Origin: a virus
DNA length: 36,618 bases
IMG/VR virus record: IMGVR_UViG_3300042691_017939
Span: 1-36,618 of that record
Reading direction: 5' to 3' (one strand)
Shown here: piece after piece, positions 3,805-31,107 of the stretch
Layout of the letters: every line of letters starts with the position of its first letter
Numbering within the stretch: the first letter of the stretch is position 1
Notes under the pieces: generated by a model
Seen by the model: the letters and a program-made list of their open reading frames with translations, nothing else
Database searches by the model: none
What the model was told of the DNA's origin: nothing
Position numbers and translations under genes: made by a program

Positions 3805-4662
3805 ATGATCGAGACTTACCCATATCTCTTAAAGAAAGATAATCACTTTAATCTGGAATCTATTCCAATTAATAGTGTACAGAAAAATATAAACTTTTTT
3901 TATACTTACAAGCGTTCGTCAGAAAATTTGTATCGCGGAGAGATTGGTAAGGATCATCTTTTATTAAAACCCTCTAGTTCGTTATTGTATGAGATAATAC
4001 CATTCTTAATTAACTTTGAAGAATATTTTCGAGTTATCGACATACACGAAAGATCCAGAAGAATACTTCCTAAAATATGTTGGTTAGCTGATTCGTTTTT
4101 TAAAAACGGATTGGCTCAACCTATTTGTGTACACTATAATCCAAGGATACAACAAAATGTTATACATCCTGGCGGAATTAGAAATCATCTTATAAAATTG
4201 TTTCACGACTTACCTACTGTTGATTGTTTTTATTTTAACACAGGTGGAGTTAAGTTTGATTTTATGAAAGAATTACAAGTTGTTAGTTCTGAGGAACTAT
4301 TAAGTTGCAAGGAAACTATGTACATACATTTAGTAGCAGATCATTGTTCAATTATTCCGCATATTAATCTTGATCCGTGGTCTGTTAACTCGAATGTAGA
4401 AAAATGGACAGAATTTATCTATAGACGATTATCAAATCCAAATTTTAAAATTTATAGCAATAAAACTATTACGCACATGGAACCATGGACTACAGTCAAT
4501 GACGAACATGCTATTGAAATAACAATAAGCGAAAATTTAAATGAATGGGATCCTGAATGGAACGATGTTGTCTGCAAAAGTATAATTTTATCAATCATTG
4601 GTAAATCGTACAAATCAGATTTATTAACAGTTGTTCACAAAATTGCAGTCACTACACCATGA
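3805..4662 (+). CDS. Unknown protein with HPG-R motif, paralogue A
   Basis: A 285-residue protein not assigned to a family. It shares with the next gene an N-terminal FFYTYKRSSENLYRG-like block, a central PICVHYNPRIQ(Q/K)NV(I/M)HPG..R(N) block at residues 110-135, a H(L/F)VADHCSIIPHINLD block near 185 and a C-terminal IIGKSYKSDLLTV. The central block faintly recalls ParB/sulfiredoxin-like motifs (a short basic strand, then HPG..R), but I would not name it on that basis. It overlaps the next gene by 4 nt (ATGA). Confidence 0.6.
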   Translation: MIETYPYLLKKDNHFNLESIPINSVQKNINFFYTYKRSSENLYRGEIGKDHLLLKPSSSLLYEIIPFLINFEEYFRVIDIHERSRRILPKICWLADSFFKNGLAQPICVHYNPRIQQNVIHPGGIRNHLIKLFHDLPTVDCFYFNTGGVKFDFMKELQVVSSEELLSCKETMYIHLVADHCSIIPHINLDPWSVNSNVEKWTEFIYRRLSNPNFKIYSNKTITHMEPWTTVNDEHAIEITISENLNEWDPEWNDVVCKSIILSIIGKSYKSDLLTVVHKIAVTTP

Positions 4663-12121: not shown

Positions 12122-14023
12122 ATGAGCAAAATCATCGGTATCGACTTAGGTACAACAAATAGCTGTGTAGCAATTCTAGAAAACGGTATTGCTAAGGTAA
12201 TTGAAAACAGCGAAGGTGCTAGAACAACACCATCAATCATTGCGTATACAGATAAAGAAATTTTAGTAGGCGCAACAGCAAAACGACAAGCAGTCACAAA
12301 CCCAAAGAATACTATCTACGCAAGTAAGCGTCTTATTGGACGTAAGTTTGACGAGAAAGAAGTACAAAAAGACATTGACTTGATGCCATATACTATTGTC
12401 AAAGCAGACAACGGTGATGCATGGATTGAAGCCAATGGCGAAAAACTTGCTCCACAACAAGTGTCAGCAGAAGTACTTCGCAAAATGAAAAAGACTGCCG
12501 AAGATTATCTAGGCACAACAGTGACACAGGCTGTCATTACAGTTCCTGCCTACTTCAATGATAGTCAACGTCAAGCTACTAAGGATGCAGGTAAGATTGC
12601 TGGCTTAGAAGTTCTACGTATTATCAACGAACCAACAGCGGCTGCATTGGCCTACGGTGTAGACAAAGCAGACAAGCGTGATCGCAAGATTGCAGTTTAC
12701 GACTTAGGTGGTGGTACATTTGATATTTCCATTATTGAAATTGCCAACATCGACGGCGACAAGCAAATTGAAGTATTGTCAACAAACGGCGATACATTCC
12801 TAGGCGGTGAAGACTTTGACCAAGCTATTATGGATCACTTGGTTGCGGAGTTTAAGAAAGATTCAGGCATCGATCTTAAATCAGATATGTTAGCACTACA
12901 ACGTTTGAAAGACTCAGCTGAAAAAGCTAAGATTGAATTATCAAGCGCACAAAGTACTGACGTTAACTTGCCATACATCACAGCAGATGCAAATGGTCCT
13001 AAACATTTAAACGTAACAATCACTCGTGCTAAGTTTGAACAAATGGTTGAAAAACTAATTGAACGTTCAATCGAGCCATGTAAGATTGCTATGAAAGATG
13101 CCAAAGTTACAGCTGCAGACATCGACGAAGTTATTCTAGTTGGTGGACAAACACGTATGCCTAAGGTACAAGAAGCAGTTGAGAAACTGTTTGGCAAGGC
13201 TCCACGTAAAGATGTCAACCCAGACGAAGCTGTAGCCGCTGGTGCCGCAGTACAAGGTGCTGTACTAGCAGGCGATAAGACAGACGTTCTATTGCTAGAC
13301 GTTACACCGTTAACACTGGGTATTGAAACAATGGGTGGTGTGTTTACTAAATTAATCAATAAAAACACAACTATTCCAACTAAACACTCACAAACATTCT
13401 CAACAGCAGAAGACAACCAGCCAGCTGTAACTATTAAAGTTGCACAAGGTGAGCGTGAGTTGTTTAAGTATAACAAACTATTAGGCGAATTTAATTTGGA
13501 AGGTATTGCTCCAGCAATGCGTGGACAACCACAAATTGAAGTTACACTTGATATTGACGCAAACGGTATTCTTAATGTAAGTGCCAAAGATAAAAACACT
13601 GGCAAAGAAAATAAGATTACTATCAAATCCGATTCTGGATTAACCGATGCTGAGATCCAACGTATGGTTCGTGAAGCAGAAGAAAATGCAGAGTCAGATA
13701 AAAAAGCGGCAGAGTTAATCAATGCACGTAATCAAGCCGAAGGTGCTATGCATAGTATTAAGAAAGACTATGAAACACACAAAGCTGAATTATCTGAAGA
13801 AGAACGTACAACGTTTGACGAAGCCGTTAAAGCAGCAGAGGATGCATGTTCCGGAGAAGATACGGAAGCAATCCAAAAGTCTGTTGAGAAACTTTTTGAA
13901 TCCGCAGGCCCTGTATTTGCCAAAAAACAAGCGGCTGAGTCTGCCAAAGCAGAATCAGAAGCTAAAGGTGAACAAACAGTGGATGCGAGTTTCACTGAGG
14001 TTGACCCTACAGACAAAAAGTAA
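12122..14023 (+). CDS. dnaK: Hsp70 chaperone DnaK
   Basis: A full-length 633-residue Hsp70. The nucleotide-binding domain starts [15 protein letters not shown] and includes [37 protein letters not shown] and [11 protein letters not shown]. The linker [16 protein letters not shown] leads into the substrate-binding domain, and the alpha-helical lid ends in a short charged tail. No DnaJ or GrpE gene is in the window, so host co-chaperones are presumably used. Complete dnaK genes are rare in phages. Expression is probably controlled by the leader thermometer. The 3' end carries the -35 box of the hsp20 promoter. Confidence 0.97.
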
Positions 14024-14029
14024 TATAAT
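14001..14029 (+). promoter_or_regulatory. Sigma70 promoter for hsp20
   Basis: TTGACC (14001-14006), 17-nt spacer, TATAAT (14024-14029), at the end of dnaK. The predicted RNA start (about 14036) is the first base of the leader hairpin. Confidence 0.7.
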
Positions 14030-14035
14030 ACAAAC

Positions 14036-14081
14036 GTAGGATGCCTTCGGGGTCCTACAAATGTTCTTGCTAATAAGGAGA
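14036..14081 (+). promoter_or_regulatory. ROSE-like RNA thermometer in the hsp20 leader
   Basis: A 5' hairpin with arms GTAGGA and TCCTAC closed by a TTCG tetraloop (14036-14058) is followed by TCTTGCT (14065-14071), AATA loop and AGGAGA (14076-14081). The last two segments pair with one extra G opposite the ribosome site, as in rhizobial ROSE elements that control small heat-shock genes. The dnaK leader repeats this design with different hairpin bases. Confidence 0.65.
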
Positions 14082-14087
14082 TCTAAA

Positions 14088-14510
14088 ATGACACAATTAA
14101 GAACAATCGACACAGCCGCTCTAGCACAACTGAGCAAAGCACTAGTAGGTTTTGATCGCTATTTTACAGCGCCACATCACCAAAATGGTAATTATCCTCC
14201 ACATAATATTGTGAAGTATGATGACACGCACTATGGCATCGAAGTTGCCGTAGCAGGTTTCAGTAAAGAAGAAGTTACTGTAGAAGTAGATCAAGACCAA
14301 CTAACAATCCGTGGAGTTAAAACTCGACTAGATGAAAATACTGTAGAATATTTGCATCGTGGATTGGCAGCTCGTGACTTTGAACAAACATTTACTCTTG
14401 CTGAGTATATGGAAGTTCGTGGTGCTAAGGTAGAAAATGGAATGTTACAAATTGACATTCAGCGTATTGTGCCAGAAGCATTGAAGCCGCGTCAGATAGA
14501 AATTAAATAA
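14088..14510 (+). CDS. Small heat-shock protein (Hsp20/IbpA type)
   Basis: A 140-residue alpha-crystallin-domain holdase. It has the PPHNIVKYDDTHYGIEVAVAGF entry strand, the KEEVTVEVDQDQLTIRG core, a YLHRGLAARDFEQTFTLAEYMEV stretch and a C-terminal IQRIVPE motif resembling the I-x-I/V anchor. ATG 14088 follows AGGAG; the upstream ATG at 14061 lies inside the thermometer and is rejected. It holds unfolded proteins for DnaK, whose gene is just upstream. T4-like cyanophages also carry Hsp20, so the gene has phage precedent. Confidence 0.92.
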   Translation: MTQLRTIDTAALAQLSKALVGFDRYFTAPHHQNGNYPPHNIVKYDDTHYGIEVAVAGFSKEEVTVEVDQDQLTIRGVKTRLDENTVEYLHRGLAARDFEQTFTLAEYMEVRGAKVENGMLQIDIQRIVPEALKPRQIEIK

Positions 14511-14519
14511 CTGTAACCC

Positions 14520-14539
14520 GGGGGAGGTAACACTCCCCC
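14520..14539 (+). terminator. GC-rich hairpin between hsp20 and clpS
   Basis: GGGGGAG (14520-14526) and CTCCCCC (14533-14539) form a 7-bp stem with a 6-nt loop. There is no U-tract, so it may pause or protect RNA rather than terminate fully. Confidence 0.4.
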
Positions 14540-14558
14540 ATAACTTAAAGAGAACGAG

Positions 14559-14861
14559 ATGCCTAGTACCGATATCCAGCTAGATGAAAAAATTAAAGTA
14601 ACTGCCCAAGAACCACGTCGCTGGAAAGTTATTTTGCTTAATGATGATTCGACTCCTATGGAATTTGTAATTTCATTGTTGATTGAAATTTTTAAACACA
14701 CTACCGAAACAGCCAAAGATATAATGCTTCAAGTGCATGAAACGGGCAGTGGTATTGCTGGAGTTTATAGTTTTGAAATTGCCGAAGTAAAAGCAGTTGA
14801 AGCAACTCAACAAGCACGTACTAACGGATTTCCTCTTCAAATTAAATTGGAAGAAGAATGA
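14559..14861 (+). CDS. clpS: ClpS, N-degron adaptor for ClpAP
   Basis: A 100-residue adaptor that hands proteins with destabilising N-termini to ClpA. The family core is clear: RRWKVILLNDDSTPMEFVISLL holds the binding-pocket residues, followed by ETAKDIMLQVHETGSGIAGVYSFEIAEVKA and ARTNGFPLQI. The phage supplies the adaptor while the protease is presumably the host's, which may redirect degradation. It overlaps the heme oxygenase start by 4 nt (ATGA), so the two are translated together. Confidence 0.92.
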   Translation: MPSTDIQLDEKIKVTAQEPRRWKVILLNDDSTPMEFVISLLIEIFKHTTETAKDIMLQVHETGSGIAGVYSFEIAEVKAVEATQQARTNGFPLQIKLEEE

Positions 14862-15406
14862 GTCTAAAAGAACTTACACACGATGCACACAAAGAAGCAG
14901 AGACTAAACCTTTTGTAAAGGTATTGTTTTCAGGAAAGATTGATCCTAAGTTGTATGCATTGTATTTAAAAAATCAACATCCTTGCTATGAAATACTAGA
15001 AGTATGTGCTATGATGTATCCAGGCTTAATAGGTGGAGCAGATGCTCGACGTGCTCCTGCAATTAACTCAGACTTTCAAGAACTGTGGGACAAAGACGTA
15101 GACGGTGAGCCTACTATACTGCCCGTAGTTAAACGATATATTGATTATATCATGTCTATTAAAGACGATCCTAAAAAACTTTTAGCACACATTTATGTAC
15201 GACACTTTGGCGACATGGCTGGTGGACAAATGATTGCTAAACGTGTTCCTGGATCAGGACGTATGTATCAATTTGAAAATGCTGATGCGCTCAAAGCATC
15301 AATACGTGAAAAACTTAGTGACGACATGGCAGATGAAGCTAAGGTATGCTTTAAGTTTGCAGGCGAGTTATTTGAAGAAATGATGACATTGGTGCCTAAT
15401 GAGTAA
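14858..15406 (+). CDS. Heme oxygenase
   Basis: A 182-residue all-helical heme oxygenase, which opens heme to biliverdin with release of CO and iron. The proximal helix LTHDAHKEAE provides the heme-ligand histidine (H8 or H11). The distal helix FGDMAGGQMIAKR (117-129) has the conserved glycine-rich kink. It overlaps the next gene, a bilin reductase, by 8 nt, so its biliverdin is almost certainly channelled there. The pair matches the ho plus bilin-reductase cassettes of cyanophages and uncultured marine phages. Confidence 0.92.
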   Translation: MSLKELTHDAHKEAETKPFVKVLFSGKIDPKLYALYLKNQHPCYEILEVCAMMYPGLIGGADARRAPAINSDFQELWDKDVDGEPTILPVVKRYIDYIMSIKDDPKKLLAHIYVRHFGDMAGGQMIAKRVPGSGRMYQFENADALKASIREKLSDDMADEAKVCFKFAGELFEEMMTLVPNE

Positions 15407-17704: not shown

Positions 17705-18172
17705 ATGTCCAAATTACCAGTAGTAGCATTTTTAGTATTACTGCCTTTAAACGTATTGGCAGCACCTCTTGCTGACTTTAGTTTCAAAAGCCCTGCGTTT
17801 AATGGCATAGGTTACAGTAGTCATGTGTTGACATTAGAAAACCAAGAATTTACACGACAGAAAGCTGCTCGTGATCAAATACAAGCGGCTTTAGATAAAG
17901 CTAAATCTGACGCTTCGAACACTAATATGTCTAAGTTTCTAAATAACTTAGAATCACGTATCTACGCACAAGTTAGTCAAAACTTAGCAGCCGCAATGTT
18001 TAAAGATGGCGGGTCTACAGAAGGTAGATTTGTTATGACAAAAGATGCTAATGGCAATCCATTAACATACATGGACTGGTATAAAGGTTTAGAAGGCATT
18101 GTTGTTACTGTAAACCAACCAGGTCAACCGCCAACAACAATTACCGTGCCGCTTGGCCAATTCCAGTTTTAA
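17705..18172 (+). CDS. csgF: CsgF-like curli assembly protein
   Basis: A 155-residue secreted protein. After a signal peptide (cleavage near LNVLA/APLA) comes the CsgF-type entry DFSFKSPAFNG, which in E. coli CsgF inserts into the CsgG pore as a second constriction. The middle is helical. A C-terminal beta part (GIVVTVNQPGQPPTTITVPLG) matches the CsgF end. The immediate neighbour is csgG, 9 nt downstream, as in curli operons. It is longer than E. coli CsgF by some 15 residues. Confidence 0.85.
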   Translation: MSKLPVVAFLVLLPLNVLAAPLADFSFKSPAFNGIGYSSHVLTLENQEFTRQKAARDQIQAALDKAKSDASNTNMSKFLNNLESRIYAQVSQNLAAAMFKDGGSTEGRFVMTKDANGNPLTYMDWYKGLEGIVVTVNQPGQPPTTITVPLGQFQF

Positions 18173-18181
18173 GGATAGACT

Positions 18182-19414
18182 ATGAAAAAGACATTAATAG
18201 CTCTATCAATATTAACATTGTTAAGTGGTTGTGCAATGATTCAAACTACTGGATTGAGCGAATCTGATCCAACAGTAACTACACAACGACCAACGGTTAA
18301 AAGAGAATTTGATACACTTCCAAGTCCTGCCGCCGGCAAACGTGTAAGTGTAGCAGTTTACAGTTTTACTGATAAAACAGGACAACGTAGACCACAAGCC
18401 AACGTAGCAAGTTTAAGTATGGCAGTTACACAAGGTGCTGATAGTTTCTTAATTAAAGCACTAAGTGATGTAGGCCGTGGAGAATGGTTTGAAGTAGTTG
18501 AACGTGGCGGCCTCGATAACTTGACTAAGGAACGATTAATCATTCGTCAAATGCGTGAAGCATATGAAGGAGCAAATGCTAAACCATTGATGCCAATGCA
18601 GTTTGCTGGCATTATTCTTGAAGGTGGAATTATTGGCTACGATGCTAGTACAACCAGCGGTGGCGCAGGTATGCGTATATTTGGTATTGGTAAACAAACT
18701 CAGTGGTCAACTGATACTGTAACTGTTAGTTTAAGAGCAGTTAGCGTAAACACGGGTAAAGTTATTGCCAGCGTTACAGTACAAAAGACAATATTAAGTA
18801 CAGCAGATTCAGCAACAGCGTTAAAGTTTTTTGATAACGCAACACAGGCATTTGAAGCAGAGGCAGGTTTAACAATTAATGAGCCAGGCACATACGCAGT
18901 TAAGGCCGCGACTGAAATGGCAGTAGTTGAATTAATTAAAGAAGGACAGCGTAAAGGAGTTTGGGATTTTAAACAAGAAGTTAAAGAGCCACCGGCAATG
19001 TCATTTGTACCAACACCGGCTCCAGCACCAGCTCCTGTAATTAGCAGTGAAATTAAACAGGAAGTTAAGCCAGAAGTTAAGCCAGAAGTTAAGCCGGAAG
19101 TTAAAGTAGAGGAGAAGAAAGATGTCTTGGTTCAACCACAAACCAAATCCGAAACGAAAACAGAAACCTTACCCGTTGCCGCCACAGAAGTAAAAAAAGA
19201 AGAAACTGATAAAGCATTGTTTGGACAACGCACATTAAAAGAAAATTCTTTCTTATATGTAAGAGAAAATGAATCAAGTACCCGCAGATGGTGGATGCCT
19301 AAAGGAACAGTAGTAGATGTAAAACAGCCCGGGATAGAAGGGTGGTGGAGAGTAACAGTTGCTGACGGAACTGGCCGCGGTGGTTGGATTCAAAGCAATA
19401 AGCTAGGTAATTAA
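18182..19414 (+). CDS. csgG: CsgG-like curli secretion pore with C-terminal SH3-like domain
   Basis: A 410-residue lipoprotein with lipobox LLSGC (C17). Residues 45-265 are a CsgG domain: RVSVAVYSFTDKTGQRR, GRGEWFEVVERGGLDNLTKERLIIRQ, GIILEGGIIGYDAST and a final GVWDFK. CsgG is the nonameric outer-membrane channel that exports curlin. Beyond the normal end is a proline/glutamate/lysine linker with repeated EVKP units (about 270-340) and a bacterial SH3-like domain (345-410, FLYVREN ... GWIQSN) that may bind peptidoglycan or partner proteins. That fusion is unusual. Confidence 0.88.
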   Translation: MKKTLIALSILTLLSGCAMIQTTGLSESDPTVTTQRPTVKREFDTLPSPAAGKRVSVAVYSFTDKTGQRRPQANVASLSMAVTQGADSFLIKALSDVGRGEWFEVVERGGLDNLTKERLIIRQMREAYEGANAKPLMPMQFAGIILEGGIIGYDASTTSGGAGMRIFGIGKQTQWSTDTVTVSLRAVSVNTGKVIASVTVQKTILSTADSATALKFFDNATQAFEAEAGLTINEPGTYAVKAATEMAVVELIKEGQRKGVWDFKQEVKEPPAMSFVPTPAPAPAPVISSEIKQEVKPEVKPEVKPEVKVEEKKDVLVQPQTKSETKTETLPVAATEVKKEETDKALFGQRTLKENSFLYVRENESSTRRWWMPKGTVVDVKQPGIEGWWRVTVADGTGRGGWIQSNKLGN

Positions 19415-19424
19415 ACAGAGGAGA

Positions 19425-19585
19425 TGTTAATTTTTTTACATGTTAATTTTTTTACATGTTAGAAAAATAACAGCAGAGTATAATTTTGTAGTAGATATAT
19501 TTAAATAAAAGAGGTAGAATAATAATAATAATGGCCATGGGCCAAGGAGCTATTAGGTAAACAATTAACCTAATTTGTAAACAAG
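19425..19585 (+). promoter_or_regulatory. Regulatory leader of the curlin genes: tandem repeats, -10, leader ORF, hairpin
   Basis: Two tandem copies of TGTTAATTTTTTTACA (starting about 19425 and 19441) are near-palindromes and look like operator half-sites. A TATAAT (19479-19484) follows without a -35 at normal distance, which suggests activator dependence. A short ORF (ATG 19531, MAMGQGAIR) overlaps the only Shine-Dalgarno (AAGGAG, about 19542). A stem ATTAGGT/ACCTAAT then separates that site from ATG 19586, and folding would bring the two close. Confidence 0.45.
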
Positions 19586-20434
19586 ATGGATAAAAGAATC
19601 AAAGGCGCTGGTGGGTTGTCGAGAAAATTACTCACAATTCTGGTGTTGTCTGGAATGGCATCACTGGGACATGCGGCTGATAACAGCATATACATTGACC
19701 AGTCTGGCGATTTCGCTAACGTCACTATTAATCAAGACGGGGCAGGTAACCAGGTAAAAGGCTTAACATCAGCGGTTGCTACTAACAGTCCAACTGATCC
19801 TGCTCTTATTAGAGGTGACGGGGTTAATGTTAATATTAATCAAACTGGAAGTAATAACAAACTAGGACTAGGAATTGATGCTACTATGGGTACTAGCAAG
19901 AGTGTTGATTTAACTTATAGTACCGTTAATAATGGTAACATAAGTGGAAGCAACAACTTGGCAACATTCCAACTAGGAACAAGTAGTGCAAGGGCTAGCG
20001 ATACTATCGTAAGTGTTATCCAGCTAAACGGCAACAACTTGGCAAACGTTAGTATGACAGGTAGTGACAATCAATTAACTGCTATTCAAAGCGGTGGCAG
20101 TGCTACATTGATTTCAACTGTTAATGCCAGTGGAACTAGACAAGATATTACAACAAGCGGTGGTACAGCAAACAGCGTTACTACTAACTTAACAGGCGAT
20201 AACGGTAATGTTTATGTAAAATTAGAAGGTGCTACTAATACTGTTGATATTGCTCAATCAGGTTCTGGAGGAGCAACGGGGCATGTTGCATGGATGGATA
20301 TCAACGGAACTGGCAATAGTGTAACATTAGCACAATCAGGCTCACCAAATGCTAACTTGTTTAATTTAAAAGTTGGAAGTGCAGGCTCTGCATCTAATAC
20401 TAACACATACAATATAACACAAACAGCAAGATAA
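19586..20434 (+). CDS. Curlin-repeat protein (CsgA/CsgB-like)
   Basis: A 282-residue secreted protein with an N-terminal signal (MDKRIKG... to GHAAD) followed by many imperfect curlin-type repeats of about 20-25 residues with N-x-(V/I)-x-(I/V)-x-Q-x-G-x-x-N character. Examples are SIYIDQSGDFANV, NVNINQTGSNNKL, NTVDIAQSGSGG and NSVTLAQSGSPNAN. Such repeats stack into amyloid beta-solenoids secreted through CsgG. It is probably a fibre subunit or nucleator. It lacks a close ribosome site; see the leader entry for a folding explanation. Confidence 0.8.
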   Translation: MDKRIKGAGGLSRKLLTILVLSGMASLGHAADNSIYIDQSGDFANVTINQDGAGNQVKGLTSAVATNSPTDPALIRGDGVNVNINQTGSNNKLGLGIDATMGTSKSVDLTYSTVNNGNISGSNNLATFQLGTSSARASDTIVSVIQLNGNNLANVSMTGSDNQLTAIQSGGSATLISTVNASGTRQDITTSGGTANSVTTNLTGDNGNVYVKLEGATNTVDIAQSGSGGATGHVAWMDINGTGNSVTLAQSGSPNANLFNLKVGSAGSASNTNTYNITQTAR

Positions 20435-20442
20435 GGTAACTA

Positions 20443-21549
20443 ATGAAAATATGGCCGGCGATATTGTTCTTACCATTGCTAGGTACATCGCTAAGTTACG
20501 CTGCGATTGGCAAGGTAACAGAACAAATTAACACACCTCCTAGTATCCAGAGAGCAAATCAAACGCTCTCTGGTGCTAAGGGTACCGGTGTGGAAATGAA
20601 CGATGCTATAAAAACACAAGCAGGCAAAGTAGGCATTACCTTTGAAGATGATACAAAGGTACAAGTCAACGAAAATAGTAAACTAGTCATCGATGACTTT
20701 GTTTATGATCCAAAAACTAAAGCAGGTAAACTAGGTGCTAAAATTGCCCTAGGTACTGTGCGCTATGCCAGCGGACAGATTGCTAAGAACAGTCCACAGA
20801 ACGTGGCACTGAACACTCCAACAGCAACAATTTCAGTACGTGGTACAGACTTTACAGCGTCGGTGGATGAGTTAGGCCAAAGTACTATTATTCTATTGCC
20901 TAGTTGTCCAACGGATCGCCCAACACGATCACTTAAAGATATAGAAGCAAATTGTAAGACTGGCGAAATTACTGTGGAAACAGATGCTGGCATTGTTATA
21001 CTCAATCAGCCATTTCAAGCAACACGGGCAAATAGTCGTAGTCAAGCACCCAGTAAACCGGTGACATTAAATCTCAGTGAAAATGCCATTGAGAGTTTGC
21101 TAATATCTACTCCTGAAGAAATGAAGTCTAACAAACAAGATGAACGCCGTACTATGAGAGGTCCATTGGATATAGATTTCTTAAAAGAACAAGGCTTAAC
21201 CAACGCATTAGATGATAGTGCTAAACAGTTTTTCCAAGACAGACTAAGTCAAAACTTTTTAGACAATAGTTTCTTAGCAAGTCTATTTGACATTATGGGC
21301 AATTCGCTCAATGAAAGATTACTAGATGAAGTCGATAGTATGTTGCCAGACTATAAAAAGTCTAGTGGTATTATAGTAGTTAAAGAAGATCCAACTGTAT
21401 CATTGTGTCGTGACAACGGTGCTGACCGTATGTGTATAACAACACCGCAAACTCAGAACTCTACATTGTACATGACACAGAATAACATTGAGTTTAAGAA
21501 CCGTATCAATCAAGGCGGCAACACAATTATTACAGTAACACAAAAATGA
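20443..21549 (+). CDS. FecR-domain exported protein
   Basis: A 368-residue protein with a signal peptide (cleaved after SLSYA) and a FecR domain at about residues 50-150 (GTGVEMNDAIKTQAGKVGITFEDDTKVQVNE..., then NTPTATISVRGTDFTASVD). FecR domains sit in the periplasm and often partner with signalling proteins. A CHASE2-cyclase lies two large genes downstream, and FecR/CHASE2 pairs are common in bacteria. The gene lies between two curlin-repeat genes and overlaps the next by 4 nt, so it is part of the module. Confidence 0.82.
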   Translation: MKIWPAILFLPLLGTSLSYAAIGKVTEQINTPPSIQRANQTLSGAKGTGVEMNDAIKTQAGKVGITFEDDTKVQVNENSKLVIDDFVYDPKTKAGKLGAKIALGTVRYASGQIAKNSPQNVALNTPTATISVRGTDFTASVDELGQSTIILLPSCPTDRPTRSLKDIEANCKTGEITVETDAGIVILNQPFQATRANSRSQAPSKPVTLNLSENAIESLLISTPEEMKSNKQDERRTMRGPLDIDFLKEQGLTNALDDSAKQFFQDRLSQNFLDNSFLASLFDIMGNSLNERLLDEVDSMLPDYKKSSGIIVVKEDPTVSLCRDNGADRMCITTPQTQNSTLYMTQNNIEFKNRINQGGNTIITVTQK

Positions 21550-23132
21550 TAAAACGCATATTGTTTATATTCATGTTGTTATTTTCACACTTGTCAGTGT
21601 CTGCTGGCATCACAGATGGTAAGTTTGGTATCAACCAAATTTTCGATGTACAGTACTGGTGGAACGGGACAACACTAAACGCCAGTAATTTTATTGCGCC
21701 ATACGATAAAAACTTTCAAACTGTAACTGCAACTAGTGGTCAATACTTTCAATTTTTTGCCAGTACAACTAATCCTGGAACATACGGTTTAAAATTAATG
21801 AATGCCGATGGGTCGTTTAATCGAATAGTTCATGATTACGGAGATATTACAGCACTAGGTAATGGTGCTATTTTCTACATTGGTTCTGGATTTTTTGGTA
21901 ATGTTATTACTACTGCCGCAGGTTACAACTACGGAGCCAGCGCACAGTTTACCAATATGGATACTGATGTAACTAGTACAGATCTAAACAACTATACCTA
22001 TGCTAGTTCTACACCATTATCGGCAGGACAAACGGCTCAATCGTCTACACCTACCGTTACTAGTACAGTAATAACATACACATGGAGACAGACAGTAACA
22101 GGCAATGTTACTAGACTGTATCGTACAAAAGTTACTACTACAAACTACAGTGATAATACAAGTACTAGCACAGCTGATCCTGAAATATTATACAGTACAG
22201 CGACCGCAACAGTTACTGAAGTTGTTTCATCAAACACACAGCAAGGTGTGGTTACTACTACAACCACACGAACTGACACAGTGATGGCCGACAACTCACA
22301 AACTACTAGTTATAGTAGTTCTAGTGTAACAACCCCATGGCCAAGTTATGTAACAATTGGCTCTGGCAGTGTGAGCCAAGACATAACTTTTGGAACAATC
22401 AACGGCCCAACGTTACCTCAGCAGACAAAAATCGATGTTTGGACTAACAAAACTATAACTGATGGCAATAAAATTTATATTGATCAAGTTAACGGTAGCA
22501 ATAATACAGTTACTATGGATCAGGACGGCAATAAAAATCTTATCAATGCCACAATAAGCGGCAATACTAATAGTGTGACAGCTAAACAAGGTGTGCCAGG
22601 TGTTGGGCAAAATGAAATTAAACTTAATCTTACTGGGGACAGTAATACATTAAATATTAACCAAGCACGTACAACACTAGGTAGTCCCTTAGGAACAAAC
22701 GGTCACTATCAAAGTGTAGAAGTTACTGGTTATCAAAACACAGTTACTACACAGCAGACTAATACTGGCGGTGTTGGTGGGCAATATATGGAAACAACTG
22801 TTAATGGTAATCAAAATAGTGTAGTTGCCCGCCAGACTGACAATGGTAATAAAATAATGTTCAACAGCATCACCGGCAACAATAATACTGTTGATGCTGT
22901 ACAGAAAGGTACAGGCCAACATTACTTAGAAAACAAACTAACAGGTAACGGCAATAGTGTTAGTGCGTTACAAGAAGGAAGCATTGCTAATCGAGCAACA
23001 ATAGACTTAACAAATAATGGCGGCCCAGCAAGTGTTATATTACAACAAACTGGCGGACAGAATGTTAGCATAACTACCGGATGTGCTACAGCAGGTGGAT
23101 GTGCGCCTGTTACAGTAAGACAAGGATACTAA
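21546..23132 (+). CDS. Large curlin-repeat protein with N-terminal domain
   Basis: A 528-residue secreted protein. A signal peptide (cleaved near SVSAG) is followed by a Thr/Ser-rich domain of unknown type (about 25-290). About ten degenerate curlin repeats follow (e.g. NKIYIDQVNGSNNTV, NTLNINQ, NSVVARQTDNGN, NTVDAVQKGTG, NSVSALQEG). The end has a cysteine pair (GCATAGGCAP) and VTVRQGY, similar to the end repeat of a curlin. It may be a capped or anchored fibre subunit that works with the 19586 product. Confidence 0.75.
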   Translation: MIKRILFIFMLLFSHLSVSAGITDGKFGINQIFDVQYWWNGTTLNASNFIAPYDKNFQTVTATSGQYFQFFASTTNPGTYGLKLMNADGSFNRIVHDYGDITALGNGAIFYIGSGFFGNVITTAAGYNYGASAQFTNMDTDVTSTDLNNYTYASSTPLSAGQTAQSSTPTVTSTVITYTWRQTVTGNVTRLYRTKVTTTNYSDNTSTSTADPEILYSTATATVTEVVSSNTQQGVVTTTTTRTDTVMADNSQTTSYSSSSVTTPWPSYVTIGSGSVSQDITFGTINGPTLPQQTKIDVWTNKTITDGNKIYIDQVNGSNNTVTMDQDGNKNLINATISGNTNSVTAKQGVPGVGQNEIKLNLTGDSNTLNINQARTTLGSPLGTNGHYQSVEVTGYQNTVTTQQTNTGGVGGQYMETTVNGNQNSVVARQTDNGNKIMFNSITGNNNTVDAVQKGTGQHYLENKLTGNGNSVSALQEGSIANRATIDLTNNGGPASVILQQTGGQNVSITTGCATAGGCAPVTVRQGY

Positions 23133-23133
23133 T

Positions 23134-23286
23134 ATGTTAGATAATATACAACCGATATGTCGTGTACCCAATTGCAAAGAAGGCGTTCAATTGTTATCAA
23201 AACAAGGCGATACTGTGCGTTACATGATAACGTGTAGAAGGCATTGGGTTGAATTAATACCAAATCAAGGATTAAAAACAGCATAA
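23134..23286 (+). CDS. Small Cys-rich protein
   Basis: A 50-codon ORF starting 1 nt after the curlin gene stop and ending just before the cyclase gene. The product has C-x4-C (CRVPNC) near the N-terminus and C-x2-R-H (TCRRHW) later, a possible zinc-binding arrangement. No family is recognised. The tight fit between two genes supports it being real. Confidence 0.5.
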   Translation: MLDNIQPICRVPNCKEGVQLLSKQGDTVRYMITCRRHWVELIPNQGLKTA

Positions 23287-23293
23287 ATATTTA

Positions 23294-25351
23294 ATGCTGA
23301 AAAAAATCTTATTAAGCCCGTGGACTGCTCTATTAACCCTAGCGTTAGTAGTGGGCATACGTATAGCAGATCCATCATTCGTTGAAAGCGTAAGACTACG
23401 CTACTTTGACACACTAATCACTGCCAAAGCTCCTACAGAGAATAATATCTATACGGTCAACATAGACGAAGCCGCACTAGACAAATACGGACAGTGGCCG
23501 CTACCAAGGGCAGAATATGCTAAAATTATTAAAGACTTGTATGATCGTGGTGCTGGCCTTGTCGTTCTCAATGTGCTTATGGCTGATCCTGATCGTACTG
23601 GTGGCGACGCAGTTCTCGGATCTGCTCTTAAAAACTATCCCGTAGTACTAGGAAGTGTACCTAGCAACAAAACAAAGAATACACCACGTGTACCAGGCAG
23701 TGCCGTAGTTAATTCAGACTACCTAAATCAAATTGTTACCTATCCTGGACTTATTGCCAACGTACCACAATTAGAAAATAATGCCGCAGGTGTAGGTATT
23801 GTAAACACACTGCCAGAAATAGACGGCGTTAATAGACGTATACCATTAATTGTTACAGTAGATGGAAAACTATATCCTGGATTGGCCCTAGAAACATTAC
23901 GAGTAGCAACTGCTAACTCAACGTTCCAAGTTAAATTGTTTGAAGGTGGCGTTGAAAAAATGCGCCTTGCTGGTGACATTGGCATTATTCCGACAGACGC
24001 ATTGGGTCGTGTTTGGATTGATTGGAGTCAAAAATCTAAATCAGCAAGTCTAACCAAACTACCAAAAGACTTTGGTGGTGCTATTGTTGTAGTAGGTCCA
24101 ACAGCCGCCGGCATTAGTAATCCAGTGCCAACAAGTCTTGGCGCAATATTCCCGCATGAAGTGCAAGCCGCAGTAATGGCAACTATGGTTAGTGGAACAA
24201 ACATACAACGTCCCGACTATGCTGATGGTTTAGAAATCATCGCTGTTGCTTTAGCAGGATTGTTATTATTATTTTTAACGAGGTGGACTTATGTTGGTCT
24301 TGGTGCAACGATTGTGTTGGCTGTTGGCGGCGTTGTTGCTAGTCGCTACGCTTTCGCTGACTTTTTATTCTTATTCGACGCTACTGCGTTTACCGCTGGA
24401 ACAATACTGGTCGCTTTGCATGCCTACGGTGTCAAGTTCGTTTCCGAGTTCCTCCAAAAACAAGCCATAAAGAAACAGTTTGCTGGCTATTGCAGTCCTG
24501 AAGTTGTTAGACTGTTACAGGAAAATCCAGACTTAATCAAGAAGGGTATTAAAAAGGACGTATCAGTTATGTTCAGTGACCTGCGTGGATTTACACCTAT
24601 TGGCGAATACTTCGACAAACCAGGCAACGGTGGTCCTCAAGGACTAGCAAACTACATGAACGGATACATGGATGCTATCACTATTCCTATTATTGATGCT
24701 AACGGTATGGTTCTCAAGTATGTAGGTGATGCTAGTATGCACATACACGGTGCTCCATTAGATGATGATCGTCACGCACATACTATCGTTGCTGTTGGAT
24801 TAGAAATGTTAGACCGTGTAGATGAGTATACTAAGATGATGGAAGCAAAAGGATTACCTCCTGCCGCAATGGGCTGGGGCTGTAACACTGGCGATGGCTA
24901 TATTGGTGAGATGGGATCAACAGCAAGACACGGCTACGATATTCTAGGCGATATGGTTAGTACTGCGGCACGACTAGAAGCACGTTGTAAGGCATATGGT
25001 GTGTTATGTATTATTGGTGCTGAAACATACAACAGAACTAAAGACGACTTCTTCTACTTGTTATTGGATAACTTACAACCAAAAGGTAAAACTGTAGCAG
25101 ACTTAATCTATACAGCATTACGTACACGTGGTGTTGATTACACTAGAGACAAAATAGCACACGATGTAATGCACGATTTATACAAACAGAAAAAGTTTGA
25201 CGAAGCGGCTGCTATGTGCAAAAAACTAATTGGCAACTTTGGTGGACAAATGGACAAGTACTACAAAATTTGGATCGAGCGTTGTGACTTTATGAAACTG
25301 CAAGACTTAGGTGATAATTGGAACGGCGAGTTCGTTGCACACGAGAAATAA
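23294..25351 (+). CDS. CHASE2-domain class III nucleotidyl cyclase
   Basis: A 685-residue sensor. A TM anchor (10-22) is followed by a periplasmic CHASE2 domain (30-305, with YTVNIDEAALDKYGQWPLPR), three membrane helices (315-380) and a class III cyclase domain (420-610). Metal aspartates are D429 (VMFSDLRGFT) and D479 (KYVGDASM). The transition-state arginine R560 is present in VSTAAR, but the usual catalytic Asn of VN-x3-R is Ser556, so activity may be altered. It would make cAMP or cGMP in response to a periplasmic signal, plausibly from the FecR/curli module. Confidence 0.87.
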   Translation: MLKKILLSPWTALLTLALVVGIRIADPSFVESVRLRYFDTLITAKAPTENNIYTVNIDEAALDKYGQWPLPRAEYAKIIKDLYDRGAGLVVLNVLMADPDRTGGDAVLGSALKNYPVVLGSVPSNKTKNTPRVPGSAVVNSDYLNQIVTYPGLIANVPQLENNAAGVGIVNTLPEIDGVNRRIPLIVTVDGKLYPGLALETLRVATANSTFQVKLFEGGVEKMRLAGDIGIIPTDALGRVWIDWSQKSKSASLTKLPKDFGGAIVVVGPTAAGISNPVPTSLGAIFPHEVQAAVMATMVSGTNIQRPDYADGLEIIAVALAGLLLLFLTRWTYVGLGATIVLAVGGVVASRYAFADFLFLFDATAFTAGTILVALHAYGVKFVSEFLQKQAIKKQFAGYCSPEVVRLLQENPDLIKKGIKKDVSVMFSDLRGFTPIGEYFDKPGNGGPQGLANYMNGYMDAITIPIIDANGMVLKYVGDASMHIHGAPLDDDRHAHTIVAVGLEMLDRVDEYTKMMEAKGLPPAAMGWGCNTGDGYIGEMGSTARHGYDILGDMVSTAARLEARCKAYGVLCIIGAETYNRTKDDFFYLLLDNLQPKGKTVADLIYTALRTRGVDYTRDKIAHDVMHDLYKQKKFDEAAAMCKKLIGNFGGQMDKYYKIWIERCDFMKLQDLGDNWNGEFVAHEK

Positions 25352-26839: not shown

Positions 26840-27458
26840 ACACTACAAAAGTACATAAACCGTTTTCGTCTGCTTCTTTAACTATATTATAATTGTAGTT
26901 GTTGACTTGTTTTGTAACTTCTTCAACAGTATAAGCAGCCATAAAAGAATTTTTTAAATCTTCTGAAAATGAATCTTGAAAGTCATCTAAACTGTTAGGT
27001 CTTTCTAAATCACAAACTAGCACATTGTTAGATAAACTGTTAATAAGTTTCCAAAACTTTTCAGTATCATTCACATGATGCAACACTCTATTAGCAATTA
27101 CTAAATCAAAACGTCCAACAGCATTAAACAAATCGTCTTCTACAATAGTAATACGATGTTCTAGTTTTGCTTTGGCTATGTTTTGCCTTGCAATCTTAAT
27201 CATCTCTTTACTTGCTTCGTAACACGTGAATGACAGTTGAGAATATAGTTTACATAACTCTATTACAAAATTACAACTACCTGAGCCTAAGTCTATTACA
27301 TGTCCGTGGTAAACACCTGCAAATTTATTGTGTTGCTCAATAAATTCTGGAATCATCTCAGGATAGTCGATGAATTCTTGGTTGTAATACTCGCATTGAT
27401 CTCGACCCTCCATCAATGCTGGCTCAGGCACGCGGTCAAACATTTCTAAGTTTTGCAA
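26820..27458 (-). CDS. Class I SAM-dependent methyltransferase
   Basis: A 212-residue methyltransferase. Motif I is VIDLGSGSCNFV at 54-65, the post-I acidic residue is in YEASKEMI, and motif IV-like DLVIANRVLHHV follows. The substrate is unknown. It is the last gene of a minus-strand operon and overlaps the desaturase gene by 23 nt, so it may modify lipids or cell-surface material. It ends tail-to-tail with the oxygenase gene. Confidence 0.82.
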   Translation of the reverse strand: MQNLEMFDRVPEPALMEGRDQCEYYNQEFIDYPEMIPEFIEQHNKFAGVYHGHVIDLGSGSCNFVIELCKLYSQLSFTCYEASKEMIKIARQNIAKAKLEHRITIVEDDLFNAVGRFDLVIANRVLHHVNDTEKFWKLINSLSNNVLVCDLERPNSLDDFQDSFSEDLKNSFMAAYTVEEVTKQVNNYNYNIVKEADENGLCTFVVFTNKDT

Positions 27459-28140
27459 GCCCGACTAATTCAAATAGTTTAAACCACATCCAACCTATGT
27501 CAAACTCAAACCAACGACGGCTTAGTTTAGGGTTAGCAGGATCCAAGTGATGATTATTGTGTAGTTCTTCACCACCAATGAGTATTCCCCATGGGCCTAC
27601 ATTACGACTGTGATCATTTGTTTCACCGTTGCGATACCCCCACCAGTGTCCAATACCATTGATAAAGCCAGCGGCCCAGAATGGGATCCATATCATCTGT
27701 ACACCCCATACTAGAAAACCCCACAGCCCAAATAACAACAAGTCTATGACTAACATTAAAAGAATGCCATGGCGGTGATATCTAGTATAGAAAACTTCAA
27801 TACGATCTTTAGGAGTACCTGCTCCGTATTTGATAACCATGTTAGGATCTTTGGTTGCTTCGTGATATAAACTCCAACCACCAAGTAATAATCGTTTGAT
27901 GCCAAATACGTGTGGGCTATGTGGATCGCCTTCTACATCTGTATTTTGATGATGTTTACGATGTACTGCTACCCATGCTTTAGTAGTCATTCCAGTTGTC
28001 ATCCACAACCAAAAACGCATAAAATGACTGAGTATAGGATGAAACTCAATGCCTCTATGTGCTTGGTTTCTGTGTAGGTATAGTGTTACACACACTATTG
28101 TGATGTGCGTCATCACTAACGTTGCGATTATAATATTCAT
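27436..28140 (-). CDS. Membrane fatty-acid desaturase (acyl-CoA delta-9 type)
   Basis: A 234-residue integral membrane di-iron enzyme with the three His boxes HRNQAH (23-28), HRKHH (60-64) and HNNHH (near 190), and two membrane-helix pairs between them. It inserts a double bond into acyl chains and so changes membrane fluidity. It is shorter than plant or yeast enzymes but normal for bacterial ones. It overlaps its upstream neighbour by 4 nt and its downstream neighbour by 23 nt. Confidence 0.9.
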   Translation of the reverse strand: MNIIIATLVMTHITIVCVTLYLHRNQAHRGIEFHPILSHFMRFWLWMTTGMTTKAWVAVHRKHHQNTDVEGDPHSPHVFGIKRLLLGGWSLYHEATKDPNMVIKYGAGTPKDRIEVFYTRYHRHGILLMLVIDLLLFGLWGFLVWGVQMIWIPFWAAGFINGIGHWWGYRNGETNDHSRNVGPWGILIGGEELHNNHHLDPANPKLSRRWFEFDIGWMWFKLFELVGLAKLRNV

Positions 28141-30031: not shown

Positions 30032-30235
30032 ATGGCATCAGGTAAAGTAAAATGGTTTAATGAAACCAAAGGTTTTGGGTTTATTACTCCAGACAACGGT
30101 GGTGAGGATTTATTTGCTCATTACAGCGCAATTCAAACTTCAGGTTTCAAAGTTCTACAAGAAAATCAAGAGGTAACTTTTGATGTAGTTCAAGGGCAAA
30201 AAGGCAAACAGGCGGCAAATATTCAACCACAGTAA
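30032..30235 (+). CDS. Cold-shock protein (CspA family)
   Basis: A 67-residue OB-fold RNA chaperone. [19 protein letters not shown] contains RNP1 (KGFGFI). RNP2 is DLFAHYSAI instead of the usual VFVHFSAI. It could melt mRNA structure during infection. It stands at the head of the segment that holds the split tmRNA. Confidence 0.94.
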
Positions 30236-30324: not shown

Positions 30325-30388
30325 TTGTTGTAATCCCTTCAAAGTGAAGGCATTCTGGACGCGGGTTCGACTCCCGCCAGGTCCACCA
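30325..30388 (+). ncRNA. ssrA: tmRNA acceptor piece (3' part of a circularly permuted ssrA)
   Basis: The segment ends GGACGCGGGTTCGACTCCC...CCACCA, almost identical to the 3' end of bacterial tmRNA. T-arm is GCGGG (30361-30365), loop TTCGACT, CCCGC. The acceptor strand CAGGTCC (30378-30384), discriminator A and encoded CCA follow. CAGGTCC pairs with GGGCCTG at 30863-30869 over 7 bp with G3-U70, the alanine identity pair. A hairpin CTTC/GAAG lies just upstream. The 5' boundary is a guess. No anticodon or D arm belongs to it, so it is not a tRNA. Confidence 0.85.
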
Positions 30389-30399
30389 TAAGGAGAGTT

Positions 30400-30504
30400 A
30401 TGTTAGGTTATGTTTTATTTTTAGCATTTTGGGTAGTATTTGGTGTAGGGTATCTTACACGAGATAAAAGCCTCGATGCTGAAAAACTACGAAACTATCA
30501 CTAA
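30400..30504 (+). CDS. 34-residue single-TM protein inside the split tmRNA locus
   Basis: It has a strong AGGAG ribosome site beginning only 2 nt after the CCA of the tmRNA acceptor piece. The product is one hydrophobic helix (MLGYVLFLAFWVVFGVGYL) plus a short charged tail. Its stop overlaps the start of the acetyltransferase gene (TAATG). Function unknown. Confidence 0.55.
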   Translation: MLGYVLFLAFWVVFGVGYLTRDKSLDAEKLRNYH

Positions 30505-30842
30505 TGTCAGATCATCGGTTAGTATGTTCTTTGATTAAAAACCGAGAACAAGTTATTTACGATTACACTAAAAATAAGTGCAGTCTCATTTTTACTGTGT
30601 CAACAGTTGAAAACAAAGTAAGGTCTCGAAAGATATCTACAGCAGTTTTCAAATACGACAGAGATAACAAATGGTACCCGCATCATATAGAAGTGTATTC
30701 AGGATACAGGCGCAAAGGCGTTGCTACTGTGATGTACGACATTGTTCAAAGTGAAATTGACGGTGTGTTAGTTCCGAGTGATGAACAAAGTGATGAAGCT
30801 CGAGAGTTTTGGTGTAATAGACTCTCAACACTTAGTAAGTAA
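30504..30842 (+). CDS. GNAT-like acetyltransferase inside the split tmRNA locus
   Basis: A 112-residue protein whose HHIEVYSGYRRKGVATVMYDIVQ matches GNAT motif A (acetyl-CoA loop R-R-K-G-V-A-T), with SDEQSDEAREFW as the usual following segment. The target is unknown. It is coupled to the 34-residue gene and ends 20 nt before the tmRNA coding piece, so it is encoded within the interval separating the two tmRNA parts. Confidence 0.7.
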   Translation: MSDHRLVCSLIKNREQVIYDYTKNKCSLIFTVSTVENKVRSRKISTAVFKYDRDNKWYPHHIEVYSGYRRKGVATVMYDIVQSEIDGVLVPSDEQSDEAREFWCNRLSTLSK

Positions 30843-30862
30843 CATTTAACGATTTTTATGAT

Positions 30863-31066
30863 GGGCCTGCCATGGTTTCGACAGGGTGAGATAATAGAGA
30901 CGGCAACACGGTAGGCGATGACCGTTAATCAAGCAAAACTCGTAAATGCAAACGCAAATACATTCAAGTTTTTCGAAGTTCCAGCTTCTGTAGCTAACGC
31001 TGCAAACGCTGAGCGTTTCGAAATCGCTGCCTAAGAAACAGCACTTGCGAGGTAGTTATACCTTGT
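30863..31066 (+). ncRNA. ssrA: tmRNA coding piece (5' part of a circularly permuted ssrA)
   Basis: It starts GGGCCTGCCATGGTTTCGACAGGG, the tmRNA 5' consensus, and includes a hairpin ACGGT/ACCGT (PK1 region). The tag frame opens at GCA 30948, encodes 28 residues beginning ANAN and ending ERFEIAA, and stops at TAA 31032-31034 inside a small stem (GCTG/CAGC). No T-arm or acceptor strand follows, only a GGTA/TACC hairpin and a terminator; the missing 3' part is the piece ending at 30388. The 3' end is estimated. Confidence 0.85.
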
Positions 31067-31080
31067 CACCAAAAATAGCA

Positions 31081-31107
31081 GAAAGGCCCTTCGGGGCCTT
31101 TCTTTTT
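31081..31107 (+). terminator. Intrinsic terminator after the tmRNA coding piece
   Basis: GAAAGGCCC, TTCG loop, GGGCCTTTC and a T5 tract. It also abuts the end of the minus-strand lipoprotein gene and can serve both directions. Confidence 0.9.

Follow-up and report, generated by a model that had tools for sequence, protein, structure and literature searches.

A permuted phage tmRNA gene with two protein genes between its pieces, and its intervening sequence as a probable slot for protein genes

The DNA analysed here, referred to as the window, is a virus record of 36,618 bases from IMG/VR. The Rfam model of permuted tmRNA (tmRNA_permuted, RF04321) matches it once, on the + strand at 30326-31034, with both pieces of a two-piece tmRNA in a single match and the 474 nt between them as an insertion. 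The match extends over the whole model (positions 1-213 of 213) and, at 120.0 bits (E 4.2e-23), passes the curated cut-off of 47. The acceptor piece, which bears the CCA (30326-30388, + strand), lies 5' of the coding piece (30863-31066, + strand; the Rfam match reaches 31034, and the 3' end is approximate, taken from the interval given by a first-pass annotation of the sequence). The acceptor stem is formed by GGGCCTG (30863-30869, + strand, inside the coding piece) and CAGGTCC (30378-30384), with all seven pairs present, including G3-U70, and each at a probability of at least 0.94 in a fold of the full precursor; A73 and CCA follow directly at 30385-30388. The T-arm (30361-30377) is perfect, and GGTTTCGAC is found at 30875-30883 of the coding piece (+ strand). 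The tag reading frame (30948-31034, + strand), placed by its conserved resume context, runs from GCA at 30948 through 28 codons, reads ANANTFKFFEVPASVANAANAERFEIAA, and ends in Ala-Ala (..EIAA) before a TAA stop at 31032-31034. An intrinsic-terminator-like hairpin with a 10-bp stem and a T-rich tail lies 3' of the coding piece (31080-31103, + strand). Upstream, the list of open reading frames (ORFs) contains a cold-shock-like gene (30032-30235, + strand), and in locus L321 a C-terminus similar to it lies immediately 5' of the tmRNA.

The first-pass annotation had proposed a two-piece, circularly permuted tmRNA whose pieces are separated by two protein genes, with this acceptor pairing, a perfect T-arm and a 28-codon tag ending in Ala-Ala, and the covariance-model search that it suggested recovered exactly such a gene across both pieces. 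The outcomes that it had named as contrary to its reading did not appear: Rfam gives no further tmRNA for the window, and thus no one-piece tmRNA using other 3' sequence, and 30326-30388 does not belong to an ordinary tRNA. Readings as an ordinary tRNA or a one-piece tmRNA are disfavoured. No intron family was matched in the window, and the T-loop of the tmRNA is continuous, which leaves no group I intron there. Standard tools miss such genes because the intervening sequence (IVS) is coding: ARAGORN did not call the window tmRNA, and a search of the genome record recovered it solely as two partial matches. The beta_tmRNA model (RF01850) is not listed for the window at its gathering threshold, a score that the long insert may have lowered; the related locus L004 passes RF01850.

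The IVS comprises the 474 nt between 30388 and 30863 and holds, as the annotation had it, a transmembrane microprotein gene and a second gene named there as GNAT, both on the + strand. It opens with the 3' trailer of the acceptor piece (30389-30400, + strand), in which a Shine-Dalgarno (SD) sequence, AAGGAG, begins 2 nt after the CCA, again as annotated. The first nested gene (30400-30504, + strand) encodes a 34-aa transmembrane microprotein and overlaps the second (30504-30842, + strand; 112 aa) as TAATG. Only 20 nt separate the stop of the latter from the coding piece, and the 5' leader of that piece (30847-30862, + strand, ..TTTTTATGAT) lies within them. Homologues of the microprotein occur in L003-L006 and inside the IVSs of L321, L352, L368, L369, L388, L411, L420 and L422. 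The second protein shares 87%, 70% and 61% identity with its relatives in L003, L004 and L005, respectively, and dN/dS against these three is 0.07-0.13; the ORF is therefore a real gene under selection, and the ratios indicate strong purifying selection on its product. Its name is less firm. Pfam matches have E-values of 0.02-0.1 and lie under the cut-offs (PF00583, 13.4 bits against a gathering cut-off of 20.7; PF14542, 15.4 against 30), and the predicted model (pLDDT 71.6) gives weak fold matches, several of them acetyltransferases and none at E <= 0.001. We call the protein GNAT-like, its membership of the GNAT family being weakly supported rather than established. A profile search with its alignment returned no further loci.

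The same gene pair is also found outside tmRNA genes. In L004 and L005 it follows an ordinary tRNA, starting about 10-14 nt past the CCA, and L004 has a separate permuted tmRNA as well, with an IVS of 66 nt. In L003, which holds the closest relative of the GNAT-like protein, the pair lies 5' of an intact permuted tmRNA and not inside it; a short repeat of the first bases of the tmRNA (4124-4143 and 4617-4640 of L003) is found 5' of the pair, the intact tmRNA following after it. This repeat looks like a trace of the gene pair moving around the tmRNA. From the three placements, the pair tends to adjoin tRNA-like sequences.

The two ends of the IVS pair with each other. Across the phage loci described below, the first ten bases past the CCA pair with the ten bases preceding the last four of the leader, which are TGAT in 105 of the 132 distinct trailer/leader pairs listed. 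Each of the ten positions is paired in 110-128 of the 132 distinct sequences, exceeding all 500 shuffles in a comparison uncorrected for relatedness, and position 1 alone occurs as T-A (53), A-T (40), G-C (14) and C-G (2). The helix was not a criterion in finding the loci, though two of the patterns used fixed parts of one strand. The perfect acceptor-stem pairing, by comparison, is not independent evidence because that stem was a search criterion. Judged from these sequences, the trailer/leader helix covaries across phages and extends the acceptor stem. In the window the trailer and leader sequences typical of the class, TAAGGA and TTATGAT, are retained at the two junctions. Beyond the acceptor stem the helix runs on as UGAU/ACCA, which includes an A-C mismatch, then six pairs, then a GA/GA internal loop and lastly another four pairs. 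Bases 30389-30400 pair with 30847-30858 at probabilities of 0.9-1.0, save for the GA/GA loop and A30400-U30847 (0.53).

The helix contains the ribosome-binding site of the nested genes. In loci listed from scans run without SD selection, 17 of the 23 long IVSs have an SD-like motif within their first 11 nt, compared with 1 of the 42 IVSs under 80 nt. When 48 loci with coding IVSs were folded, the mean probability of the SD being unpaired was 0.04 in the precursor, 0.13 in the excised IVS and 0.59 in nascent RNA ending before the leader; for the window the values were 0.04, 0.08 and 0.63. The folds thus predict that the SD is open while the RNA is nascent and becomes closed once the precursor is complete. 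At the other end, the ORF stop is the TGA of the leader TGAT in 30 of the 53 ORFs listed, and in most others it lies a few bases earlier.

These loci were collected by pattern scans of IMG/VR and piece-pairing scripts, and all counts of loci are lower bounds and not frequencies. At least 246 permuted tmRNA loci were found. After removal of redundancy they have at least 165 IVSs between 11 and 492 nt long, at least 46 of them 150 nt or longer. Among the loci listed, 41 of these 46 long IVSs are filled by one ORF that starts within 16 nt of the CCA and covers at least 75% of the IVS, against 1.1 expected when the start region was kept and the core of the IVS shuffled. An SD and ATG were selection criteria in one scan; among loci listed from the other scans alone, 22 of 23 long IVSs are filled in this way (0.6 expected). 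In IVSs under 80 nt, ORFs are no commoner than in shuffles among the loci listed. The five exceptions have tandem or internally started ORFs: two tandem ORFs in L321 and L399, the microprotein and a second short ORF in L352, an HNH-like ORF starting further in in L402, and the window itself. Only L402 and L424, at 492 nt, have longer IVSs than the window among the loci listed, and all 13 further long-IVS loci tested (IVS 211-492 nt) pass RF04321 in one match. The window is one case among others: environmental phages commonly have coding IVSs. A second pattern scan added IVSs of 159-186 nt with a short first ORF (L446, L442, L444, L488, L462); in these examples, an ORF for a short acidic peptide overlaps one for a membrane microprotein that ends at the leader stop.

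The cargo of these IVSs is varied, including thioredoxin (L074 and L284, Pfam E 4e-21), HNH-like, GNAT-like and membrane proteins, the rest being without a named family. The HNH-like match of L402 (E 0.003) and the GNAT-like match of L357 are below cut-off, and L341 encodes a PGDYG protein (3.4e-6). The HNH-like ORF in the IVSs of L402 and L424 raises the possibility that the tmRNA locus is a homing site. Most dN/dS values between members of a cargo family are under 0.3, as in L305/L364 (0.08), L257/L322 (0.14) and L357/L366 (0.25), certain short pairs reaching 0.8; L305/L395 and L387/L332 were left out of these comparisons for mismatched offsets. Nearly identical cargo is found in tmRNAs that differ in their T-arms (L305 and L364; L357, L366 and L378), so cargo and tmRNA have probably been exchanged through recombination. 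The cargo proteins of L357 and L305 gave no match among cultured phages.

Many loci with coding IVSs have canonical tags (ANDxxxALAA). Among the readable phage tmRNAs listed, about 50 of 160 have tags of 23-34 aa, not the usual 10, examples being the window (30948-31034), L074, L127, L013, L253 and others. Long tags in different contigs share blocks such as TFDFSAMSFTGNTV and TFKFFEVPASV, as if they had been extended by a module. Some variant tmRNAs (L364, L343, L395, L342 and others) have the T-arm GCGGGGGCAGTGCCCGC, without TTCRA, and in their coding piece GGATCGATTGG replaces GGTTTCGACAG; L364 and L343 still pass RF04321.

The annotation had described known intervening sequences of permuted tmRNA genes as short and non-coding, which agrees with the available part of a bacterial survey (PMC11915505), the source of the bacterial IVS lengths used here. 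RF04321 merges RF01849-RF01851 and represents the permuted two-piece tmRNA of Alpha- and Betaproteobacteria and Cyanobacteria, which the window resembles in piece order, G3-U70 acceptor stem, T-arm, tag frame and the predicted absence of the IVS from the mature RNA. Among 11,946 permuted genes surveyed, one IVS holds a tRNA and another, in the longest gene (1152 bp), a repetitive element, and the part of the survey available mentions no protein genes in IVSs, in contrast to the protein-coding IVS of the window (PMC11915505). When 84,980 bacterial and archaeal genomes were scanned for a T-arm, CCA, SD and ATG motif, no coding IVS with exactly that motif was found; the only matches were two tRNA genes with a dnaX-like gene 3' of them. 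Among cultured phages, BLAST with coding pieces gave no match, and BLAST with the acceptor piece gave ten records, of which the four examined have short IVSs with no apparent gene. XacN1 (L425), SM1 (L426), QDWS595 (L427) and BUCT628 (L428) carry short-IVS permuted tmRNAs that are unannotated in their records.

Phage Melnitz and other aquatic phages encode a two-piece tmRNA, and Melnitz-like phages share with the window both this RNA and curli genes; the available part of that report describes no genes within the IVS, whereas the window has two (PMC9004378). The curli-like operon of the window (CsgF, CsgG, FecR, curlin repeats), followed by a CHASE2-adenylate cyclase, occupies 17705-25348. Host-like genes for DnaK, heme oxygenase and fatty-acid desaturase lie in 12122-15403 and 27436-28137, together with small heat-shock-like and ClpS-like ORFs recognised from sequence. 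A nested protein gene is likewise present in tmRNAs with a group I intron carrying homing-endonuclease genes, of which the HNH-like cargo of L402 is reminiscent, but there, according to the available part of PMC11915505, it sits in a self-splicing intron of the T-loop, unlike the IVS of the window. Circularly permuted tRNA genes also have their 3' half before the 5' half and the intervening sequence at the acceptor end, as in the window; their intervening sequences, however, are 1-74 nt long and the halves are ligated (PMC3978253). Permuted tmRNAs are thus already known in phages, and the protein-coding IVS is, provisionally, the new part: the literature searched, mostly without subscription papers, yielded no description of protein genes in the IVS of a permuted tmRNA.

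We consider it likely that the locus is a working permuted tmRNA of a phage, with the IVS as a protein-gene slot, and that a single transcript has its cargo translated before the two pieces are released. Such a transcript would take in the acceptor piece, the nested genes and the coding piece and end at the terminator. The nested genes would be translated from the nascent RNA by means of the trailer SD directly past the CCA, ribosomes in most members of the class stopping in the leader, just 5' of the coding piece. Once made, the leader would pair with the trailer, so that the acceptor stem becomes longer and the SD is closed; this translation-first order is the one that the modelled folds suggest. 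RNase P, with a predicted cut after 30862 (30862/30863), and a tRNA 3'-end nuclease would then release the two pieces, which would remain base-paired. We infer these tRNA-processing enzymes because permuted tmRNA precursors in general are known to be cleaved by them, according to the available part of PMC11915505. More tentatively, and with somewhat more doubt than belief, we suggest that cargo can be exchanged at the IVS and that the site contains its own switch, in which the trailer/leader helix that offers the precursor to tRNA-processing enzymes also closes the cargo ribosome-binding site, so that translation of the cargo delays tmRNA maturation and its lack favours it.

The annotation had left open whether the RNA is cut from an mRNA or made from separate transcripts. 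With two transcripts, the acceptor piece would be the last part of an upstream operon, and a separate promoter within the nested genes would serve the coding piece, an arrangement to which a long, coding IVS lends itself. A sigma-70 scan found neither a promoter-like site on the + strand of the IVS nor a consensus promoter upstream of the locus, other phage promoters being outside its reach. The stop of the GNAT-like gene lies so close to the coding piece, and the trailer and leader covary as an extended stem, which matters only if both are in one RNA or anneal before cutting, that we favour cutting and regard separate transcripts as unlikely. Still less probable is that a recent insertion of the two-gene cassette broke the tmRNA and left a pseudogene in this contig. 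The pair does follow ordinary tRNAs in L004 and L005 and adjoins an intact tmRNA in L003, and a 26-nt search, from which near-identical records may be missing, found the exact junction of the window in the window contig only; yet acceptor stem, trailer/leader helix, tag frame and terminator are all intact, many independent tmRNAs with coding IVSs have canonical tags, and microprotein homologues lie inside the IVSs of L321, L352 and L368. That a junction known from a single metagenomic contig is an assembly chimera is the most improbable reading of all, given that TAAGGA and TTATGAT are kept at both junctions, where they pair with each other, and that many other contigs also have long coding IVSs.

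Taken as a working tmRNA with a gene slot, the locus indicates that the IVS, regarded as waste, recurs as a home of protein genes in phages, for which it would be a compact gene slot. Proteins and a ribosome-rescue RNA probably both come from one transcript, and direct conflict or coupling of translation with RNA processing is predicted at one helix. The coding IVS may thereby offer a testable reason for the presence of permuted tmRNAs in phages.
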